A DNA stretch of 64,000 bases from Verrucomicrobiales bacterium (GTDB lineage Bacteria > Verrucomicrobiota > Verrucomicrobiia > Verrucomicrobiales > DEV007), in assembly GCA_002726915.1 (NCBI GenBank), contig PBSY01000087.1, forward strand, positions 1 to 64,000. The letters run 5' to 3'. Below the pieces are notes generated by a model. The model was not told the origin of the DNA. It saw nothing but the letters and a program-made list of their open reading frames with translations, and made no database searches. Made by a program: the position numbers and the translations under genes. Below are positions 51,916 through 62,377 of this stretch, piece after piece. Position 1 is the stretch's first letter. Every line of letters begins with the position of its first letter.

Positions 51916-52659
51916 TTAACGATACTCTTTACGGTAATACAGAGGCGTCATTCCCATATGCTTGCGGAACTGGCGTGAAAATGCCGCCTGATCGTAAAAT
52001 CCCAGATTAGTCGCGATGTCCGAAATTGATTTCCGGCTCCGACGTAGGTCATCGCAGGCCGCATGCACCCGCATTTTGATAATGTATTGCTGGGGCGGCA
52101 TCTTGAGATGCTCCTTAAATTTTCTTTCGAACTGTCGTACTGATAGCTCACACATTTCAGCAAGACTGGGAATTGGGATCTCGCGGTTGAAATTAGCCCC
52201 AATGTGATTCAAAGCAGCCGAAATATCAGAATCCGCGGGCAGCAAATCACGCTGCTTATCGAGGTTCTGAATAGTCCCCATCACACCAATCACTTCACCA
52301 TCTCGGGCAAATACAGGAATCTTATTGGTTAGGAACCAGGCAGGGATACCATGTCGACTGATGAATATTTCTACAATTTCCAGCAGCGGTTCGCCCGTCT
52401 CAGCAATCTTAATGTCATCGGCACGAAACTTCTCCGCGAGACTGTGGGGCAAAAGGTCAAAATCGGTCGCTCCCCAAAACTTATTTTCATCCTCATAACC
52501 ATATAGGTCAAGCAGGGCCCGGTTAGCGGCGAGCAAACGACCCTCTTGATCTTTGGCAAAAAACAGAACGCCAGGGAGATGATTAAAGAGGAGCTGGAAG
52601 GCCTGATCTGGAAGGACTCGCTCTAAAAACTCTTTTCTCAGTTCAACTCCGCTGCGCAT
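51916..52659 (-). CDS. AraC-family regulator with N-terminal PAS domain
   Basis: Transcriptional regulator joining a PAS sensor to a C-terminal AraC DNA-binding domain. The PAS part spans about residues 18-130 (HLPGVLFFAKDQEGRLLAAN, then PAWFLTNKIPVFARDGEVIG). The two helix-turn-helix units are IPIPSLAEMCELSVRQFERK and SISDIATNLGFYDQAAFSRQ, ending FRKHMGMTPLYYRKEYR. The ATG at 52659 is used because the upstream TTG at 52740 adds residues with no family match. It faces the coiled-coil gene across a 97-base intergenic stretch. Ligand and targets are unknown; PAS-AraC proteins of this shape are common in Verrucomicrobia and Planctomycetes. Confidence 0.9.
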   Translation of the reverse strand: MRSGVELRKEFLERVLPDQAFQLLFNHLPGVLFFAKDQEGRLLAANRALLDLYGYEDENKFWGATDFDLLPHSLAEKFRADDIKIAETGEPLLEIVEIFISRHGIPAWFLTNKIPVFARDGEVIGVMGTIQNLDKQRDLLPADSDISAALNHIGANFNREIPIPSLAEMCELSVRQFERKFKEHLKMPPQQYIIKMRVHAACDDLRRSRKSISDIATNLGFYDQAAFSRQFRKHMGMTPLYYRKEYR

Positions 52660-52756
52660 ATTGATGAAAGAACTCCGCGAAAATCGGCGTAGAGCAAGGT
52701 ACGAAATTAGTTTACTAGGTAGAAATTTAACAAAACACAATTATTGTAAGTGCATC

Positions 52757-53674
52757 ATGAGCGGAGAATACCAGACAGAAGACACCGCAGAAGACTACGA
52801 TTACGGGCGCGCCGGAAACGGGAAAACAGTTTTACTGATCCTGCTGGCAGTCCTCCTCGTTGCCGCCGCCGTAGCAGCGGTATCCATGGGTAAGCGATGG
52901 AGTAGCGAGCAAGCCAAAACACTATCGCTGCAACAGCAGATGGAATCCGTCACCAATCGCATGAGCGAGGTTGAAGGCAGAAACGCCGAGTTATCGGGTC
53001 TCCTAGCAGATAAGCAGGCCGAAAATGACCGACTCAAGGACGAGTGGTCCACGCAGGTAGGAACCCTGAAACAACAGCACAAAGATCAACTCCAGAGTAC
53101 CTACGCTCAAATGAACGATATCGTTTACGACAGTCGGAAGACGCTCACCTACATTGGAGATATTGAAGATCGACTTAAATCGGGCCAGGAACTGGACGAA
53201 GTTGAAGCAGCTAAATTGCAGAGCGTCGTGAATGGACTTCTTGTTCTCCACGAGCAGTACAAAAAGCCGCTGAACGAATTTCGCGAACTGAGCCGTTACT
53301 TTGGGCAGCAACTCGCTGCGCTTCCGGAAGGCGCACTCGACCCTAAGGACACAACATCGCTGGGCAAACGTCTTTTTAAGAACCGCGAGTTCCAAAATGA
53401 ACGACAACAATTCTTTGAAAGTCAGGGGCGCCGCATTGCCTTGGTAGAGGTACAGGAGGTTTACACCACAGCTTATTCGAGCGCCCAATACAAGATGAGC
53501 AGCATCTCGCTGAACATTAATGAGTATCTAACTGAACTCGACTCAGTGATTCAATCCAACCAAAAGAGTGCGTCAGAATTAACTTCTTTCTTCGACAAGT
53601 CCCGAGAGATCCTTCAAATTCATGAGAAGATTATGAACATCGAGCCTCCAAAAATTGAGGAAGTTCGGCCCTAA
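52757..53674 (+). CDS. Hypothetical membrane-anchored coiled-coil protein
   Basis: No family recognised. An acidic N-terminus (MSGEYQTEDTAEDYDYGRAG) is followed by one membrane helix (TVLLILLAVLLVAAAVAAVS). Then comes a long helical, Gln/Glu-rich region with heptad character (LSLQQQMESVTNRMSEVEGR, LSGLLADKQAENDRLKDEWS), which should form a coiled coil, and a compact helical C-terminal part. The orientation suggests a short cytoplasmic tail and a large outer domain. The ATG at 52757 replaces an in-frame start at 52661 that would add 32 residues without purpose. It is ended by a strong terminator at 53729. A structural or scaffold role is only a guess. Confidence 0.72.
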   Translation: MSGEYQTEDTAEDYDYGRAGNGKTVLLILLAVLLVAAAVAAVSMGKRWSSEQAKTLSLQQQMESVTNRMSEVEGRNAELSGLLADKQAENDRLKDEWSTQVGTLKQQHKDQLQSTYAQMNDIVYDSRKTLTYIGDIEDRLKSGQELDEVEAAKLQSVVNGLLVLHEQYKKPLNEFRELSRYFGQQLAALPEGALDPKDTTSLGKRLFKNREFQNERQQFFESQGRRIALVEVQEVYTTAYSSAQYKMSSISLNINEYLTELDSVIQSNQKSASELTSFFDKSREILQIHEKIMNIEPPKIEEVRP

Positions 53675-53786: not shown

Positions 53787-53811
53787 AAACAAACGTTTAA
53801 AACATTTGTTT
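53787..53811 (+). promoter_or_regulatory. Palindromic operator, probable TetR-domain binding site
   Basis: An imperfect inverted repeat with arms AAACAAACG (53787-53795) and CATTTGTTT (53803-53811) around a 7-base centre; eight of nine arm positions match. It lies 30 bases before the ATG of the TetR-channel fusion gene. TetR-family repressors commonly bind such dyads of this length next to their own genes; PsrA-like members favour GAAAC/GTTTC-type arms, of which these are reminiscent. It should repress the whole efflux operon. Confidence 0.7.
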
Positions 53812-53841: not shown

Positions 53842-55950
53842 ATGAGAAAAGACTCAAAGGAAACAAAAAACCGAATTCTCGACACCGCTGAGTCGCTCTT
53901 CTCAGATCATGGGTTTCGTGTTGTTTCGCTCCGTCGCATTACCCAAGAAGCAGAAGTTAACATCGCTTCGGTGAACTACCACTTCGGCTCAAAAGATGCG
54001 CTCATTTCCGAGGTTTTCACCCGAGTCGTCGCGCCCATCAACCGCGAGCGTCTTACACTTTTGGGCCAGTCCGAATCGACACACGGTTCTTCTCCAGTTC
54101 CTTTGGAAGAAATCCTAGAGGCGTTACACCGCCCCGTGGTAAACCAATTGAAGCAGTCCGGCCTCAACGAATCCGTTTACCTAAAACTGGCAGGACGCTG
54201 CTTGGCAGAATCGGGCGCTACTTTCTCCGACAAACTTGCCAAATTATTCGAAGAAATGCTAAACCGCTTCATGTCGGCCACGTGCAAGTCTCTGCCCCAC
54301 CTTGACGAGGAGGACATCTTCTGGCGCATGCACTTTTCTTTCGGCGCCCTTGTGACTGCCTTGACAGACTCGGAACGTGTCGCCGTCTTTTCCCAAGGAC
54401 GCATTCAATCCCCTGATCCCGAAGAGACGCTGCAACGCCTCATCGATTTCACCGCCGCCGGGCTCCGTGCCGATTCCCATACCGAAAAGCACCAGCCAAA
54501 AGCCGCAAAAATTGGAGCTGCATTAACGTCACTTATTATAGCTACAGGGCTCAGCAGCTGCAACGCAACATCACCTCCGAATGCGGCATCTTTAGCCACA
54601 GTCCAGGCTCCCGCTCACTGGGTCGCCGACAAAAGCAGTCACTCACCAAAAATGGCCGACCAATACTGGATTAGTCATTTTAGCGATCCCAGCCTTCGAT
54701 CCTTCGTCGGCTCGGTTTTGGAAAACAACAAGGACCTGAAAACGGCCCAGTCACGCATCGAAATCGCAGCAGCGAGTGCTCGCCTTGTTGGAGCTCAGCG
54801 CCATCCTCAGCTAAGCAGCACCTTTAACAGCCGACGAAACAAACAAACTTTTATTGGCTTCCCCATATCTGGCGCTGGAACGAATCCTGTCTTTAGCTAC
54901 TTCAATCAATTTGGCGCCGGTCTCAATCTTTCCTGGGAAGTGGATCTCTGGGGCCGCATCAAGGCAGCCCAGCAGGCAGCTATTGCTGAATTTGAAGCCT
55001 CTGAGTTCGACCGAGCTACCGCTGAACTTTCATTAACCGGGCAAGCAGTCAAAGCCTGGTTAGCTCTCGCGGAAGCGCACGAACAGGTCGCCCTGACCCA
55101 GCTCACGATCCGTAAATTTTCAGAAACAGAAGACCTATTGAGGGGGCGCTTTGAACGCGGCCTTGAAGAAAATGGCCGCAGCTTCGCATCCGAACTCCTC
55201 TTAGCCCAAGCCGACGTGGCGAGAGCGAGAGAAAATCTGAGTGTTGGACTGGAACGAGCTGAGAGAACAGCGCGCCAACTCGAATTATTGGCAGGGCGAT
55301 ATCCGGCAGGACAAGCTGGTGCTGCGGCAAAGCTGCCGGATTTCCCGGGAAGCATCCCCACCGGCCTACCAGCCTCGCTTCTTGATCGACGTCCTGACCT
55401 GGCTGTCGCGGAGCGCCAAATCGCAGCTGCCGACGAGCGCTTACTTGAAGCCAAACGCGCGCTGCTGCCCACCATCAGTCTGACGGGCAGCTATGGCAGC
55501 GCCAGCGATGATATCACCGACATTCTCAGCAGTAACTTCGGCGCCTGGAGCATCGCTGCCGGTGCTGCCCAGCCTATCCTCCAAGGCGGCCGACTTCGCG
55601 CCAACATTGCTAGGCGCGCGGCCGAGGTTGATCTCGCTGTTTCAAACTTTGAACAGGCCGCGCTTGTTGCCTTTTCTGAGGTGGAGAACGCCCTCTCAAC
55701 GGAAAAGCATTTAAAGAACCGGACTGACTTTCTTGCCGAATCCAGCCGTATGGCGACTCAGGCTTACAATCGTGCTCTCGAAGAGTTTGAAAATGGAACC
55801 GGTAATGTCCTGACTGTCCTCAGTGCTCAACAACAGGCTTTCGCTACCAACTCACAACTTCTAAGCCTGCGACGCTTGGCCCTTGATAACCGTGTCGAAC
55901 TCCATCTGGCCCTCGGAGGCAGTTTTCAACCTCACCCAAACTCAGATTGA
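53842..55950 (+). CDS. Fusion of a TetR-type repressor and an outer-membrane efflux lipoprotein
   Basis: One uninterrupted frame of 702 residues joins two proteins that are normally separate. Residues 1-210 are a TetR/PsrA-like repressor: the helix-turn-helix ends in NIASVNYHFGSKDALISEVF and the ligand domain has DIFWRMHFSFGALVTALTDS and LIDFTAAGLRA. Then a basic segment and hydrophobic core (PKAAKIGAALTSLIIATGLS) end at Cys240 in SSC, a lipoprotein signal. Residues 250-702 are a full NodT/OprM-like channel subunit: DQYWISHFSDPSLRSFV, LNLSWEVDLWGRIKAAQQAA, and LLDRRPDLAVAERQIAAADE, twice-repeated helices and strands. No ATG, GTG or TTG occurs close before the signal, so separate translation is not obvious. 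An upstream TTG at 53806 would lie in the operator. First gene of the operon. Confidence 0.88.
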   Translation: MRKDSKETKNRILDTAESLFSDHGFRVVSLRRITQEAEVNIASVNYHFGSKDALISEVFTRVVAPINRERLTLLGQSESTHGSSPVPLEEILEALHRPVVNQLKQSGLNESVYLKLAGRCLAESGATFSDKLAKLFEEMLNRFMSATCKSLPHLDEEDIFWRMHFSFGALVTALTDSERVAVFSQGRIQSPDPEETLQRLIDFTAAGLRADSHTEKHQPKAAKIGAALTSLIIATGLSSCNATSPPNAASLATVQAPAHWVADKSSHSPKMADQYWISHFSDPSLRSFVGSVLENNKDLKTAQSRIEIAAASARLVGAQRHPQLSSTFNSRRNKQTFIGFPISGAGTNPVFSYFNQFGAGLNLSWEVDLWGRIKAAQQAAIAEFEASEFDRATAELSLTGQAVKAWLALAEAHEQVALTQLTIRKFSETEDLLRGRFERGLEENGRSFASELLLAQADVARARENLSVGLERAERTARQLELLAGRYPAGQAGAAAKLPDFPGSIPTGLPASLLDRRPDLAVAERQIAAADERLLEAKRALLPTISLTGSYGSASDDITDILSSNFGAWSIAAGAAQPILQGGRLRANIARRAAEVDLAVSNFEQAALVAFSEVENALSTEKHLKNRTDFLAESSRMATQAYNRALEEFENGTGNVLTVLSAQQQAFATNSQLLSLRRLALDNRVELHLALGGSFQPHPNSD

Positions 55951-55967
55951 AACAAAGACAACTGAAG

Positions 55968-57173
55968 ATGAAGAAGCTTTTCAAGATACTGATCGGAATT
56001 GGAGTGCTCGCCGGTGGGTTCGCAATCTCGGGTCTCCTGTGGATCACCCGACCCGTTCCTGATAAAGTGGAACAGACCAAGGCCTTGATGGCGGTCGATT
56101 ACATTAGAGCAGATCTCAAGACAGTTTCCTTCGAGATCCCATCGCAAGGCATCATTGAAGCCCATCGACGAAGCCAACTAGCTGCTGAAGTTCCCGGGAA
56201 GGTTGTCTACGTTGACCCCCTGTTTGAAGTCGGTCAGATCGTCCCAGCAAACCACACCTTAATTCGACTCGACGATACAGATTTCGAAGCCGCAATTGCC
56301 CAAGCTGAAGCGACCTTAGCCGAGACTGAATCAGCGCTTCATAGCGAGGAAGCTCGGCAAGAACAGGCTCGACGAGACTGGGAACGTGATCCTGTCCCGA
56401 ATAAAGATTTTAAAAAAGCACCACCACTTGTCCAACGACTCCCGCAGCTGAAAAGTGCCATGGCACGTGTCAAGTCGGCTACCAAAGCGCTAGAAAAAGC
56501 ACAACAGGACAAGGCTCGCACGAACATCACGGTTCCCTTCAATTGCATTATTGCTTCAAAAGATACCGAACTCGGCAGCTATGTAGTGCCGGGCTCTAGG
56601 GTGACGGAAGTCTTCGAAAGTGGTCCCTACGAGGTACGTCTACCCATATCCATCGATGAACTGAATCACTTAAAATTGAGCGAGGATGGAGATCCAACAG
56701 GGATCGTCAGACTTAATGCAACCGTGGGTTCCAAGGAGTTGAACTGGGAGGCTGAAATAATTCGTAATGAGGGAGAAATTGATCGGCAGACTCGTTCGCT
56801 TTACCTCGTTGTCCCAGTCGAAAATACCCGGGGTGCCAGAGCCCGCCCGGGTCTGTTCGTGAACGCATCGGTCTCCGGAAAACCCTACGAGGATGTTGCC
56901 GCCATCCCCTTCCAGGCCTTTACCAACTTAAATCAGATAGTTGTGATTAAAAAAGAGGACGGCCAAGACAAGCTCTACCCACGTGACGTCGATATACTCT
57001 ATCGAAAGGGAAACACCGTTTTTGTCGAAGGCGGCCTCAACCATGGGGACCGCGTCTGCGTCACTGAGGTCCCGGACCTCGTCTCCGGTCTCCCCGTCAA
57101 GGTCACCCCCCTTTCTGCTGAGAAGACTTCAGAGGAATTAACTGACAATACCGCAGCCACCAATCAACCGTGA
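55968..57173 (+). CDS. RND efflux periplasmic adaptor (membrane fusion protein)
   Basis: HlyD/AcrA-like adaptor that joins the RND pump to the outer-membrane channel. The membrane anchor is KILIGIGVLAGGFAISGLLW. The lipoyl/barrel start is SRRSQ-like: AHRRSQLAAEVPGKVVYVDP with LFEVGQIVPANHTLIRLDDT. A helical hairpin follows (AIAQAEATLAETESALHSEE), then the beta-barrel (GSYVVPGSRVTEVFESGPYE). The ATG at 55968 is chosen; a TTG at 55947 overlaps the preceding stop and would add seven residues. It ends with a four-base GTGA overlap with the RND gene. Confidence 0.92.
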   Translation: MKKLFKILIGIGVLAGGFAISGLLWITRPVPDKVEQTKALMAVDYIRADLKTVSFEIPSQGIIEAHRRSQLAAEVPGKVVYVDPLFEVGQIVPANHTLIRLDDTDFEAAIAQAEATLAETESALHSEEARQEQARRDWERDPVPNKDFKKAPPLVQRLPQLKSAMARVKSATKALEKAQQDKARTNITVPFNCIIASKDTELGSYVVPGSRVTEVFESGPYEVRLPISIDELNHLKLSEDGDPTGIVRLNATVGSKELNWEAEIIRNEGEIDRQTRSLYLVVPVENTRGARARPGLFVNASVSGKPYEDVAAIPFQAFTNLNQIVVIKKEDGQDKLYPRDVDILYRKGNTVFVEGGLNHGDRVCVTEVPDLVSGLPVKVTPLSAEKTSEELTDNTAATNQP

Positions 57174-60100
57174 ACGAACTTCATAAAGATTCAGGTGTCA
57201 TCCACTGGTTCAGCCGCAACCATGTTGCAGCGAACTTTCTCATGGCATTAATTGTGGTGATCGGAGTCGGAACCTGGCCAGAAATCAAAAAAGAAATCTT
57301 TCCCGAAGTTTCGATTGATGCTGTATCGATTTCGGTGCCCTATCCCAACGCGACCCCCGACGAGGTCGAAAAGGGCATTATCGTTCCGATCGAGGAAACG
57401 ATCCAGGATGTCGATGGCATTGATGTGATCCGTTCGGTAGCGAGCCAAGGTTACGGCAACGTCACTGCCGAAGTAGCGACTGGCTACAATGTGCGCAGCA
57501 TAATGGATGACATCAAAACACGGATCGATGCCATCCAGAACATGGCAGAAGAAGCCGAAGAACCAGTGCTCCATGAAATTCTAATCAAAGCACAGGTGAT
57601 GAGTATTGCCGTATCGGCCGAAACCGATGAGGCCACCCTTCGCACTATCGCCGAAAGGGTTCGTACCGACCTGCTCAATTATCGTGGTGCCAAACAACAA
57701 GTCACTCAGGCATCCCTTACCGGGGTTCGGGACTACGAAATCTCAATTGAGATTCCCGAGCAAAGGCTGCGCGAATATGGCATCAGCATGGACGTTATCG
57801 CCATGGCCGTGAGGAAAGCCTCCCTCGACCTTCCAGGAGGATCTCTACGCACAGACGGTGGTGAAGTTCTGCTGCGCGCAAATGCCCGCAAATATACGGC
57901 CTCCGAATTCGCCCCAATTCCTGTCATCACACGCGCAGACGGCTCCACTGTGACTCTTGGCGAAATTGCTACCATACGCGACGGCTTTGAAGAAGATCCG
58001 ATCAATACGCGGTTTGACAACGCACCTGCTGTATTGATCAACGTCTATCGCGTGGGTGACGAAGACACACTCAAAATCGCTGAAACAGTGAGATCATTCA
58101 TCGATAGCTACTCCAAGACAAAACTCCCTGCCGGTGTCGGATTAGAAATCTGGAAAGATGATTCCAGCTACCTAGATGGTCGACTTAGGCTACTCGCCAA
58201 AAATGGATTAGTCGGACTTCTGCTTGTTATCCTCGTGTTGGCCCTGTTTTTGCGTCCCAGTCTCGCCCTTCTTGTTGCTATCGGCATTCCGGTCTCATTT
58301 GCCGGAGCTATCGCCCTGATGCCTTGGACCGGGATTTCGATCAACATGATATCACTGTTCGCCTTTATTCTCGTCCTCGGCATCGTGGTGGATGATGCGA
58401 TTATCGTCGGTGAAAATGTTTACAGTCGAATGCGGAAAGGTGAACACCCGAGGGAAGCCGCTCCCCGTGGAACCCGTGAAGTTGGAATCGTCGTGGTTTT
58501 CGGCATCCTAACGACAGCAATGGCTTTTACCCCCATGCTCGGACTGAGCGGCGTTAGCGGCAAAATCTGGCCTAACATTCCGCTTATTGTTATACCCACT
58601 CTCCTTTTCTCACTGTTCCAGTCAAAACTTATTCTTCCCTCCCACCTCGCCTGCCTCAAGCCTGCAAGCGAACAGAAAGCCCCGGGACCTATCCTTCGAT
58701 TTCAGCAAATCTTCTCTCGTGGTCTCGAAAACTTCGTTGACCGTTATTACAGGCCGGTCCTTGCCGTCTGCCTCAAGAATCGTTACCTCGTTCTGGCAAC
58801 ATTCATCTCCCTTTTCGTTGTCACTGTTGGCACCATCAGGTCTGGTCACATCAAATTCATCTTTTTCCCCGAAGTCGAGACCGATGTAATCAACGCAAAG
58901 CTCAAGATGGCTGAGGGAGTTTCCTTTCAGAAGACCGCCGATGCCATTAGCCTAATCGAAGAAAAAGGGCTCCAACTCAATAAAGAGTTCCCGGTGCAAT
59001 CAGGTCAGCCAATTGTTAAACACATGCTGGCTAGCACAGGGAGCCAGCCTCTCGTCGAGGGGATGGGCAACGTGAATTCATCGCCTAATGGAACGAATAT
59101 CGGGGAAGTTACAATCGAGCTTATTGGAGCTGTAGAACGCAAAGGCATTGAGGGGGTTGATATCGTCTCTCGCTGGCGTGAGCTGGTTGGTGATATCTCC
59201 GGAGCTACTGAACTGATTTTCGCTACAGAATCAGCAGCTGGCGGCAATGCAATCGACCTCGAGATTATCGGTGACAATATTGATGAGCTGCGAGAAGCCA
59301 CTCATCTAGCCAAAAAAGCCCTCGCCAGCTATGACGGAGTGATCGACCTCGCGGACTCTGACGTTGAAGGCAAACGCGAATTACAGCTCGAACTGCTCCC
59401 GACGGGTAGGATAATCGGTCTCCGCCTTGAAGATATCGCCCGACAAGTAAGGCAGGGATTTTATGGAGACCAAATTCAACGCCTCCAGCGAGGCAAAGAC
59501 GAAGTGAAAGTTTTTGTTCGCTACCCAAGAACGGAGCGCACCTCAATAGCGGACCTCGAGAACATAAAAATTCGTCTCGGTGATGGATCAGAAGTTCCGT
59601 TCACAGAGGTCGCCAGGGCCCGCTTCGGCAGGGCCGATGCCACTATTCAGCGTACAGACCAGCGGCGCGCAATACGCATCACCGCCGACGTCGATAAGGC
59701 GCAGGGAGCAAACGCTACTGAAATCGTGCGCGAATTAACCTCCGGCAATGAAGCGCACTCTTACATGAAGGTTTGGGGTAACAATATCAGAAACTGGTTT
59801 CGTGAACGTCGCGGCATGGAGCAAGTAGCACTCCCGGAAATAAAAAAAGGCGCCCTGACGCTGCTTGAAGAAAACTTCGCGGGGGTCAATTACAGCTTTG
59901 AAGGCGAACAGAAAGACCAAGCCCAATCCATCAGCGAAATGGGTAGTAAAGCAGTCCTTGCACTCCTCGGGATGTATGTGCTCATGGCAATCCCGCTACG
60001 CTCCTACATTCAGCCTATGATTGTTATGTGCGTGATTCCTTTTGGCCTCGTCGGAGCGGTCGTGGGACACCTTTTGCTCGGCTTCAACTTCTCCATCATG

Positions 60101-60499
60101 AGCATGTGCGGTATCGTCGCTCTAGCCGGCGTCGTGGTAAATGACTCCCTTGTTCTGGTCGACTACGTAAATCGGAAGCGAACTGCGGGCCTATCCCTGC
60201 ACGATGCAGCATGGGAAGCCGGCGCAGCGCGATTCCGCCCGATTCTTCTCACTTCTCTCACTACCTTCGCCGGACTGACTCCAATGCTCCTCGAAACCGA
60301 CGTTCAGGCCCTGTTTCTCGTTCCAATGGCGGTTTCTCTGAGCTTCGGAATCCTGTTTGCCACGTTGATCACGCTGATTCTCGTTCCCGCAGTTTACCTC
60401 ACGCTTGAGGATGCCAGAATTGCACGCAAACGCCACCAGCAAAGAAAAGCTTCCCGAAAAAATAAAGCGATCTCCTCAGTTGTGGAAGCATCACATTAG
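57170..60499 (+). CDS. RND-type efflux transporter, HAE1 family
   Basis: Inner-membrane proton-driven pump of 1109 residues with two repeats of the AcrB plan. The first helix is HVAANFLMALIVVIGVGTWP. The proton-relay aspartates are Asp408 and Asp409 in GIVVDDAIIVGENVYSRMRK. In the second half VALAGVVVNDSLVLVDYVNR lies where AcrB has its key Lys; here that site is a Val, as in a subgroup of HAE1 pumps. Periplasmic loops such as PNATPDEVEKGIIVPIEETI and YGISMDVIAMAVRKASLDLP are intact. The GTG start overlaps the adaptor stop. Substrate unknown. The SulP gene begins 48 bases after the stop. Confidence 0.95.
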   Translation: MNELHKDSGVIHWFSRNHVAANFLMALIVVIGVGTWPEIKKEIFPEVSIDAVSISVPYPNATPDEVEKGIIVPIEETIQDVDGIDVIRSVASQGYGNVTAEVATGYNVRSIMDDIKTRIDAIQNMAEEAEEPVLHEILIKAQVMSIAVSAETDEATLRTIAERVRTDLLNYRGAKQQVTQASLTGVRDYEISIEIPEQRLREYGISMDVIAMAVRKASLDLPGGSLRTDGGEVLLRANARKYTASEFAPIPVITRADGSTVTLGEIATIRDGFEEDPINTRFDNAPAVLINVYRVGDEDTLKIAETVRSFIDSYSKTKLPAGVGLEIWKDDSSYLDGRLRLLAKNGLVGLLLVILVLALFLRPSLALLVAIGIPVSFAGAIALMPWTGISINMISLFAFILVLGIVVDDAIIVGENVYSRMRKGEHPREAAPRGTREVGIVVVFGILTTAMAFTPMLGLSGVSGKIWPNIPLIVIPTLLFSLFQSKLILPSHLACLKPASEQKAPGPILRFQQIFSRGLENFVDRYYRPVLAVCLKNRYLVLATFISLFVVTVGTIRSGHIKFIFFPEVETDVINAKLKMAEGVSFQKTADAISLIEEKGLQLNKEFPVQSGQPIVKHMLASTGSQPLVEGMGNVNSSPNGTNIGEVTIELIGAVERKGIEGVDIVSRWRELVGDISGATELIFATESAAGGNAIDLEIIGDNIDELREATHLAKKALASYDGVIDLADSDVEGKRELQLELLPTGRIIGLRLEDIARQVRQGFYGDQIQRLQRGKDEVKVFVRYPRTERTSIADLENIKIRLGDGSEVPFTEVARARFGRADATIQRTDQRRAIRITADVDKAQGANATEIVRELTSGNEAHSYMKVWGNNIRNWFRERRGMEQVALPEIKKGALTLLEENFAGVNYSFEGEQKDQAQSISEMGSKAVLALLGMYVLMAIPLRSYIQPMIVMCVIPFGLVGAVVGHLLLGFNFSIMSMCGIVALAGVVVNDSLVLVDYVNRKRTAGLSLHDAAWEAGAARFRPILLTSLTTFAGLTPMLLETDVQALFLVPMAVSLSFGILFATLITLILVPAVYLTLEDARIARKRHQQRKASRKNKAISSVVEASH

Positions 60500-60547: not shown

Positions 60548-62377
60548 ATGACGAGACGCGTTCGCTGGCTATTTCGAAGACTCGGGCAACAGGTTAGAGG
60601 GTTCATTTCCAAGAACTCCATCGATCCGCTCCCCATACGGCAGGGTTTCGTTGGTTACAATCTATCGAAGCTCCGTTACGACGCGACAGCGGGCCTGAAT
60701 GTGGCACTACTCGCCTTCCCGCAGGGTATGGCTTACGCCGTTATCGCCGATCTTCCGATTCAATACGGTATCGTATCTGGTGCCGTTGCCGCCATCATTG
60801 CTCCTCTCTTCGCTGGTTCAAGACACACCATCCTCGGGCCGACTAACGCCACAGCCTTTATGCTGTTCTCCAGTTTCGCTGCCTTCTCTGCCAAGGACCA
60901 AATCTTCTATCTCCCCATGCTAGTACTCATGGTGGGTATTCTTCTAGTCGTGGGGGCCCTCTTCCGCGTTGCGGAGCTCGTCCAGTATGTGAGTCGCTCC
61001 GTCGTGGTAGGCTATATCACCGGAGCCGCCATCCTAATCATCGCCAACCAACTTCGGCACGTCATGGGGGTTGAATTAACTCCTTTGGATTCCACAGGCC
61101 CGAAAACCTTTTTCACAATTCTCCAAGGAACCATTGCCGAGGCAGGACATACCCAATGGCAAACACTTGCCCTGGGTGTGGCTACTTTCATCTTCTGGTT
61201 CTTTTTGTCCCGAAAATTCAAAAAGCTGCCTGTGTTCGCTATCACCTTGCTTGTGATGTCGGGAGCCTACTTTCTTCTCGAGAAATTCGCGGGATGGCAA
61301 GTGTCTACCTTCGATTCGTTCACTATTTCAGACCTCGCCCCAAACCTGCCAGAGATCAGCTCTCGGGGCTTTTTCTCCGACCTCAGCCGATTGACTGGAC
61401 TCGCGTTTTCCATTGCTTTTCTTGCATCACTTGAGAATTCCGTGATGTCGAAAACTCTAGCGAGCCGAGCGGGTGATCGTCCTGACGTGAATCAGGACAT
61501 GCTCAGCGTTGGCATTGCCAATCTGGTAGCAGCTTTTACAGGCGGCATGCCTGCCTCTGGTTCCCTGACACGTTCTGCCTTAAATTTTGCGAGCGGCGCG
61601 ATCTCCCGTCTCTCAAGTATATTCAGCGGCCTCCTCTGCGTGGTTGGTCTGCTCTTACTCGGTGACTATATGCACCTTGTCCCGAAAAGCTGTCTCGCTG
61701 CATTGGTTATCGGAATTGCTGCTTCGGTAATCAATCTTCCTCATCTCAGAATTTCGCTCTACGCCACCCCCTCCGATGCTGCAGTATTGATCACCACGTT
61801 TGTCGCAGCACTTATTCTTCCTCTCAACATCGCCATCTTTCTCGGCGTTGGCATCTCGGTGATGCTCTACCTTCATGCAGCCAGCCACCCCAACCTCATC
61901 GAATACGAGTTTTCTGAAAAAGGGGAATTGCGTGAAGCTGGGGAAAAGCGGGCTCGCCCCACGCCTGCCATATCTATCGTCCACGTAGAAGGCGACTTGT
62001 TTTTTGGCGCGTCCGAACTTTTCCGTAACCAAATCCAAAAAACTTCGTTGGACCCCGATCTCCGGGTCATCATTCTGCGCCTCAAGAATGCACGTCACCT
62101 CGATGCCACCAGCGTCGTTGCACTTGAAGAACTCGTTCAGTTTCTCAGAGCCCACGAACGCCATGTCATTATAAGCGGGGCATCCAAGGAGGTCTACCGC
62201 GTCCTGAAAAACTCTGGTAGTCTTGAGGTAATCGGGAAAGAGAACGTAAAGCTGAACAACCCTCAGAACCCCAATCTTTCAACCCGAAACGCCCTTAAGA
62301 GGGCACAAGAGTTACTCGGTAGCACAGAAGCTGACATTCGGATCTTCCACGATCCGACCCTGGATCAAAGGAAGTGA
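60548..62377 (+). CDS. SulP-family anion transporter with STAS domain
   Basis: Membrane transporter of the SLC26/SulP family with sulfate, bicarbonate or dicarboxylate as possible substrates. The membrane part has the family start YDATAGLNVALLAFPQGMAY, the GPTNATAFMLFSSFAAF segment, and the second-half ASLENSVMSKTLASRAGDR with ANLVAAFTGGMPASGSLTRS. About ten to twelve helices are visible to residue 440. The cytoplasmic STAS domain is near residues 475-565 (AISIVHVEGDLFFGASELFR ... LDATSVVALEELVQFLRAHE). At 609 residues it is normal length. It follows the RND operon by 48 bases and may be its last gene, though an internal promoter is possible. Confidence 0.92.
   Translation: MTRRVRWLFRRLGQQVRGFISKNSIDPLPIRQGFVGYNLSKLRYDATAGLNVALLAFPQGMAYAVIADLPIQYGIVSGAVAAIIAPLFAGSRHTILGPTNATAFMLFSSFAAFSAKDQIFYLPMLVLMVGILLVVGALFRVAELVQYVSRSVVVGYITGAAILIIANQLRHVMGVELTPLDSTGPKTFFTILQGTIAEAGHTQWQTLALGVATFIFWFFLSRKFKKLPVFAITLLVMSGAYFLLEKFAGWQVSTFDSFTISDLAPNLPEISSRGFFSDLSRLTGLAFSIAFLASLENSVMSKTLASRAGDRPDVNQDMLSVGIANLVAAFTGGMPASGSLTRSALNFASGAISRLSSIFSGLLCVVGLLLLGDYMHLVPKSCLAALVIGIAASVINLPHLRISLYATPSDAAVLITTFVAALILPLNIAIFLGVGISVMLYLHAASHPNLIEYEFSEKGELREAGEKRARPTPAISIVHVEGDLFFGASELFRNQIQKTSLDPDLRVIILRLKNARHLDATSVVALEELVQFLRAHERHVIISGASKEVYRVLKNSGSLEVIGKENVKLNNPQNPNLSTRNALKRAQELLGSTEADIRIFHDPTLDQRK

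Follow-up and report, generated by a model that had tools for sequence, protein, structure and literature searches.

Can a transcriptional repressor and an outer-membrane efflux channel be one protein, and if so, how would each half reach the place where it works? Transcription factors and outer-membrane proteins are normally separate polypeptides, since a membrane lies between the compartments in which they act. The question is raised by a gene at positions 53842-55950 of contig PBSY01000087.1 from a Verrucomicrobiales bacterium, of which a stretch of 64,000 nucleotides (hereafter the window) was analysed. The features described below lie on the forward strand unless stated otherwise.

Anatomy of the fused gene and its operon

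The gene occupies a single uninterrupted frame from a TTG at 53806 to the TGA at 55948-55950. Translation likely starts at the ATG at 53842, giving 702 residues, because the TTG at 53806 sits within the putative operator described below and the nearest relative uses the same ATG. Residues 6-212 form a PsrA-type TetR repressor with a TetR_N helix-turn-helix domain (residues 12-58, 53875-54015; 49.7 bits against a Pfam gathering cutoff of 24) and a TetR_C_30 ligand and dimerisation domain (residues 93-207, 54118-54462; 91.1 bits, cutoff 26.3). The best solved relative of this half, both by sequence (4.4e-30) and by fold (TM score 0.84 by target), is Pseudomonas aeruginosa PsrA (PA3006, PDB 2fbq). 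The curated cutoff of the PsrA equivalog NF053516 was missed (140.9 bits over residues 5-210, cutoff 300). Residues 241-702 (54562-55947) correspond to a mature outer-membrane factor of the NodT/OprM type: the Pfam OEP domain scored 142.6 bits (cutoff 22), the NCBIfam profile outer_NodT (TIGR01845) matched residues 233-693 with 273.8 bits (cutoff 210.05) and was covered from 6 to 459 of its 460 positions, that is, at full length, phmmer matched OprM at 8.6e-46, and Foldseek matched the AlphaFold monomer model of the channel half to OprN/OprM. In the AlphaFold model of the whole protein (mean pLDDT 72.6) the TetR fold and the channel helices appear as two separate domains with an unordered junction, residues 214-245 being of low confidence. 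The preliminary description had proposed a complete TetR repressor fused in frame to a complete channel through a lipobox cysteine at residue 240, and both its coordinates and this anatomy were borne out.

The same description had placed the fusion at the head of an RND efflux operon, and adaptor and permease indeed follow in tight series and in the same direction. The periplasmic adaptor (membrane-fusion protein; RND_mfp, TIGR01730 above cutoff; HlyD_3) occupies 55968-57173, its frame opening at a TTG at 55947 and its likely start being the ATG at 55968. The RND permease at 57170-60499 is recognised by Pfam (ACR_tran, 520 bits) and falls below all NCBIfam subfamily cutoffs; its best RND subfamily score was 440 of 1250 bits, far under the cutoff. 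Channel, adaptor and permease are thus contiguous, as expected of a tripartite RND operon, and no second channel gene is present in it.

Several neighbouring genes were recorded as well. A SulP-type permease with a STAS domain (60548-62377) begins 48 nt beyond the RND permease, runs in the same direction and may be co-transcribed with it. Upstream, at 52756-53674, lies a gene for a membrane-anchored, coiled-coil-like protein without a Pfam match, paired with a divergent gene for an AraC-type regulator with a PAS domain on the reverse strand (51916-52740). Both keep their position in the fused relatives L004 and L005, and the coiled-coil gene does so also in the TetR-less relatives L033-L036; it may belong to the efflux system. 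A promoter scan detected no sigma-70-type promoter for the fused gene.

Fused, split and TetR-less relatives

Homologues were surveyed in 75 genomes of the window's family and 387 of its order. In 28 genomes of the order, the window included, one frame was open from TetR into the channel without a stop; 24 belong to the window's family (genera g1, g8, g9 and g10) and 4 to family f4. The fused relatives are 38-90% identical to the window protein, and their metagenome-assembled contigs include DCQY01000078, JARGNG010000004 and CAJXQE010000083. A stop codon restored between the two parts, or close relatives that are always split, would have refuted the fusion. Neither was observed: the nearest relatives have no stop at the junction, and within the window's genus the locus is either fused or TetR-less, split forms being confined to other genera. 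That an error of sequencing or assembly joined two genes would be conceivable for a fragmented draft (102 contigs), all the more as just this kind of fusion would result if one base were wrong where two genes overlap as ATGA. However, 28 genomes from several genera have no stop at the junction, and the linkers, themselves divergent, always differ in length by multiples of three; an error or chance joining is thereby excluded.

When the TetR half alone was used as query against 388 genomes of the phylum, only one long frame besides that of the window was detected (G093). No fusion was found among plasmids: a search of a plasmid collection gave 4421 records, in none of which a single place covered 80% of the query. 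A Burkholderia stagnalis match reaching back to residue 161 turned out to be an ordinary channel of 472 amino acids and was dismissed.

In the split relatives TetR and channel are separate, adjacent genes, with TetR directly before the channel. The start codon of the channel and the stop codon of TetR share bases, as ATGA or GTGA, in 8 of the 15 split loci. The distance from TetR residue 210 to the lipobox Cys has a median of 90 nt in split and 93 nt in fused loci, and in several ATGA loci it is 89 nt, i.e. 2 modulo 3, one short of a multiple of three. Given the ATGA overlap often seen in unfused relatives, a shift by one base would suffice to fuse the two genes. We infer that such a change at the overlap removed the TetR stop and joined the frames, leaving the old channel start superfluous. 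In four split loci (L040, L061, L063 and L064) one or two stop codons are all that separates TetR from a channel in the same frame; these loci may be intermediates on the way to fusion or fused genes that have split again.

Nine genomes of the window's genus (L031-L037, L039 and L044) carry the channel gene without a TetR part before it. The same upstream neighbour is retained in four of the nine, so that the TetR part has been deleted and is not merely cut off by a contig end. A whole-genome search with the TetR half found no PsrA-like TetR elsewhere in eight of these genomes, and in the ninth (G015) only a weak match in the range of the helix-turn-helix. The TetR-less channel genes open, at the corresponding position, with a lipoprotein signal of the usual kind, so the signal can act alone at an N-terminus. 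In the tree of the channel half the TetR-less rows nest within the fused rows at about four places, and forcing them into one clade cost 165 log-likelihood units (AU p = 2.5e-46). The trees therefore favour about four losses of the TetR half inside the fused clade; the fused state appears ancestral in the window's clade, and the efflux operon of the TetR-less genomes appears to have become, several times, constitutive or otherwise controlled.

The fused rows themselves fall into clade A, with the window's genera g1, g8 and g10, and clade B, with f4 and genus g9, split forms lying between them. Holding A and B together was rejected by the channel tree (AU p = 1.5e-6), and the TetR tree separates them too; a single origin of all fusions is thus disfavoured. 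Two fusion events are the simplest reading favoured by the trees. Horizontal transfer of the operon, which could also scatter the trait, is not excluded.

The putative operator and the internal lipoprotein signal

Upstream of the fused gene, 31-55 nt before its start codon, lies a putative operator of two adjoining PsrA-type boxes, AAACAAACGTTT-A-AAACATTTGTTT (53787-53811; full sequence AAACAAACGTTTAAAACATTTGTTT), with the pattern AAACN4GTTT-N-AAACN4GTTT. In Pseudomonas the PsrA box is G/CAAAC(N2-4)GTTTG/C, and two boxes are reported for the PsrA-like Smlt2053 (PMC10304680, PMC13104628). The window operator keeps the AAAC-N4-GTTT core, the flanking G/C varying. It occurs as a single exact copy both in the 3.5-Mb assembly and in the window, where 0.24 occurrences with up to three mismatches would be expected. 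Of the fused loci 25 of 26 have the tandem operator, of the split loci 11 of 15, and of the TetR-less loci none of 18, as scored against first-order Markov shuffles. The pattern was derived from the window and the other loci tested come from separate genomes; two of the TetR-less loci repeat others in longer form (L066 repeats L034, and L067 repeats L033). The fused homologue L030 (G016) lacks the tandem operator and has one box right at the start codon. This homologue is divergent (44% identity), has a very long branch and a mature channel that starts differently, and has possibly changed its function.

Since the operator accompanies fused and split loci and is absent from TetR-less ones, DNA binding by the repressor half has very probably been retained, an inference made without binding data. 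That the TetR half is a non-functional relic, serving merely as a leader for the channel, might be suggested by the roughly four lineages that lost it and retained the channel. Yet both halves are under purifying selection, which is at least as strong on the TetR half as on the channel (dN/dS between the window and its nearest relative 0.07 for TetR, 0.06 for the helix-turn-helix, 0.13 for the channel half), and the operator is kept where TetR is kept and gone where TetR is gone. On these two grounds the relic was rejected as very improbable.

The two halves are joined by a linker of residues 213-240 (54478-54561), in which a basic n-region and a hydrophobic core are followed by the lipobox LSSC (residues 237-240), with a predicted signal peptidase II cut before Cys240. 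It was identified without a trained signal-peptide predictor and lies internally, not at the N-terminus. The segment before Cys240 is the most hydrophobic 17-residue stretch of the entire protein. Not one of the 26 fused proteins lacks the lipobox Cys, and in each of them the segment before it is the most hydrophobic one, usually preceded by basic residues. The linker is 5-41% identical in eight of the nine pairs that were compared, against 57-92% for the flanking halves. Signal peptides are known to drift freely in sequence and to keep their hydrophobic character; a drifting linker with a constant hydrophobic segment and a fixed Cys is the pattern of a signal peptide.

Two other ways of accommodating the halves have to be set against cleavage at this signal. 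They might be made separately, with a cryptic or non-canonical internal start, or cytoplasmic cleavage in the linker, yielding a free channel precursor and the open frame reflecting a tight translational overlap; split forms often do begin the channel at the TetR stop through the ATGA overlap, and in 6 of the 26 fused genes an ATG, GTG or TTG accompanied by a purine-rich stretch lies 15-45 codons ahead of the Cys. Possible internal starts thus exist in some fused homologues, but no start position is conserved among the fused genes. The window gene has no in-frame ATG, GTG or TTG between residue 200 and Cys240, the next one following 31 codons past the Cys, and the same interval is likewise empty in L012, L017 and L060; without a common start codon before Cys240, an exportable channel can hardly be made separately from the window gene. 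A hidden ribosome site would moreover suggest reduced synonymous divergence in the linker, which between the window and L009 is not reduced (dS 0.57 against 0.44-0.51 elsewhere, over 19 codons only) and so counts against an internal start. A separate internal start was accordingly set aside, and separate synthesis as a whole remains conceivable but improbable. The fusion might, on the other hand, stay uncut as a transmembrane regulator resembling ToxR/CadC, the channel half serving as a periplasmic sensor or pump-docking domain and cleavage being rare or regulated. The topology is alike in outline, with a DNA-binding N-terminus, one hydrophobic segment and an exported C-terminal domain. An invariant lipobox Cys (26/26) would not be expected of a plain anchor, however; the channel half is complete, constrained and of the OprM type in an operon that has no other channel gene, and it is only the channel that TetR-less relatives retain. 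We regard an uncut regulator as highly unlikely.

Proposed mechanism and comparison with known systems

The reading that we consider probable is a single precursor that the internal signal directs to export and that signal peptidase II cleaves into repressor and channel at a ratio of 1:1, the processing being inferred. This precursor would unite the operon's autorepressor with its outer-membrane channel. Its PsrA-like TetR domain would fold in the cytoplasm, dimerise and bind the two operator boxes 31-55 nt ahead of the start codon, and would keep the entire fusion-adaptor-permease operon repressed until a hydrophobic ligand frees it. A fatty acid or another hydrophobic molecule is suggested as this ligand by analogy with PsrA only. 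The internal signal would take the C-terminal half to Sec, Lgt would lipidate Cys240 and signal peptidase II would cleave before it; the channel would then mature and move to the outer membrane, and the TetR half would stay behind facing the cytoplasm, unattached or anchored in the inner membrane by what is left of the signal peptide. With one repressor left per channel subunit, negative feedback would be built in. The preliminary description had regarded the copy numbers of regulator and channel as locked together. The suggestion is compatible with the fusion and holds for the stoichiometry of synthesis; steady-state levels depend on processing and turnover.

The cleaved precursor is proposed without protein, RNA or cleavage data, and some points count against it. 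Repressors are usually present at far lower copy than channels. Synthesis of both at 1:1 is therefore the main weak point and requires a TetR half that is weak, tethered or short-lived. A folded domain of 210 residues ahead of a signal sequence is unusual for Sec and likewise speaks against the proposal, as do the TetR-less relatives, which show the repressor to be dispensable, the missing tandem operator of L030, the lack of a sigma-70-type promoter and the possible internal starts of some homologues. In a more speculative version, which we think unlikely though still worth entertaining, the cut TetR half would stay tethered to the inner membrane, sense pump substrates or fatty acids of the lipid phase, and report on channel export, each exported channel subunit or each failure of maturation altering the form of the repressor. 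If true, this would define a class of self-regulating lipoprotein precursors.

As the fusion is conserved, selected and apparently arose twice, every expression of the gene confronts the cell with a topology problem, and lipoprotein processing is the simplest step that would separate the halves. If the cleaved precursor is real, a regulator is delivered in a fixed ratio to the part that it controls, and this repressor may possibly sense the export of the channel or ligands dissolved in the membrane. With fused, split and TetR-less loci all occurring in a single order, the group provides a natural experiment on the fusion of regulators to, and their loss from, efflux operons.

The preliminary description knew of no described example of this architecture, and our literature search likewise found no published transcription factor forming the N-terminal part of an outer-membrane lipoprotein. 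The portion available to us of a review of outer-membrane protein fusions (PMC4827864) named no regulator fusion. The sequence searches for the fusion covered Verrucomicrobiota genomes and plasmids; annotated protein records with the TetR and channel layout may well exist, perhaps in other phyla too.

Among known systems, PsrA-type repressors (P. aeruginosa PsrA and Stenotrophomonas maltophilia Smlt2053) share the TetR_N and TetR_C_30 domains, include the relative closest in solved fold and sequence, and have a boxed operator motif upstream of their own operon, with two boxes as in Smlt2053; autorepression, as in these proteins, is likely by analogy. The window TetR differs in being the N-terminal half of a larger exported protein, in scoring under the NCBIfam PsrA equivalog cutoff and in heading an efflux operon instead of a beta-oxidation operon. 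With the NodT/OprM factors (TIGR01845, OMF family) the fused protein has in common the complete channel domain, the lipobox Cys and the location in an RND operon, but its signal is internal, behind 210 TetR residues, and theirs is N-terminal. AcrR/MtrR-like RND operons also place channel, adaptor and permease under a local TetR; in the fused gene, however, repressor and channel are one polypeptide. The layout of ToxR/CadC is similar in that a single hydrophobic segment separates a DNA-binding N-terminus in the cytoplasm from an exported domain. In the fused protein, however, the DNA-binding domain is a TetR instead of a winged helix-turn-helix, the hydrophobic segment resembles a cleavable lipoprotein signal and the exported part is a complete channel. 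Both protein families and the operon type are known; it is the fused architecture that was not met with in the literature searched.
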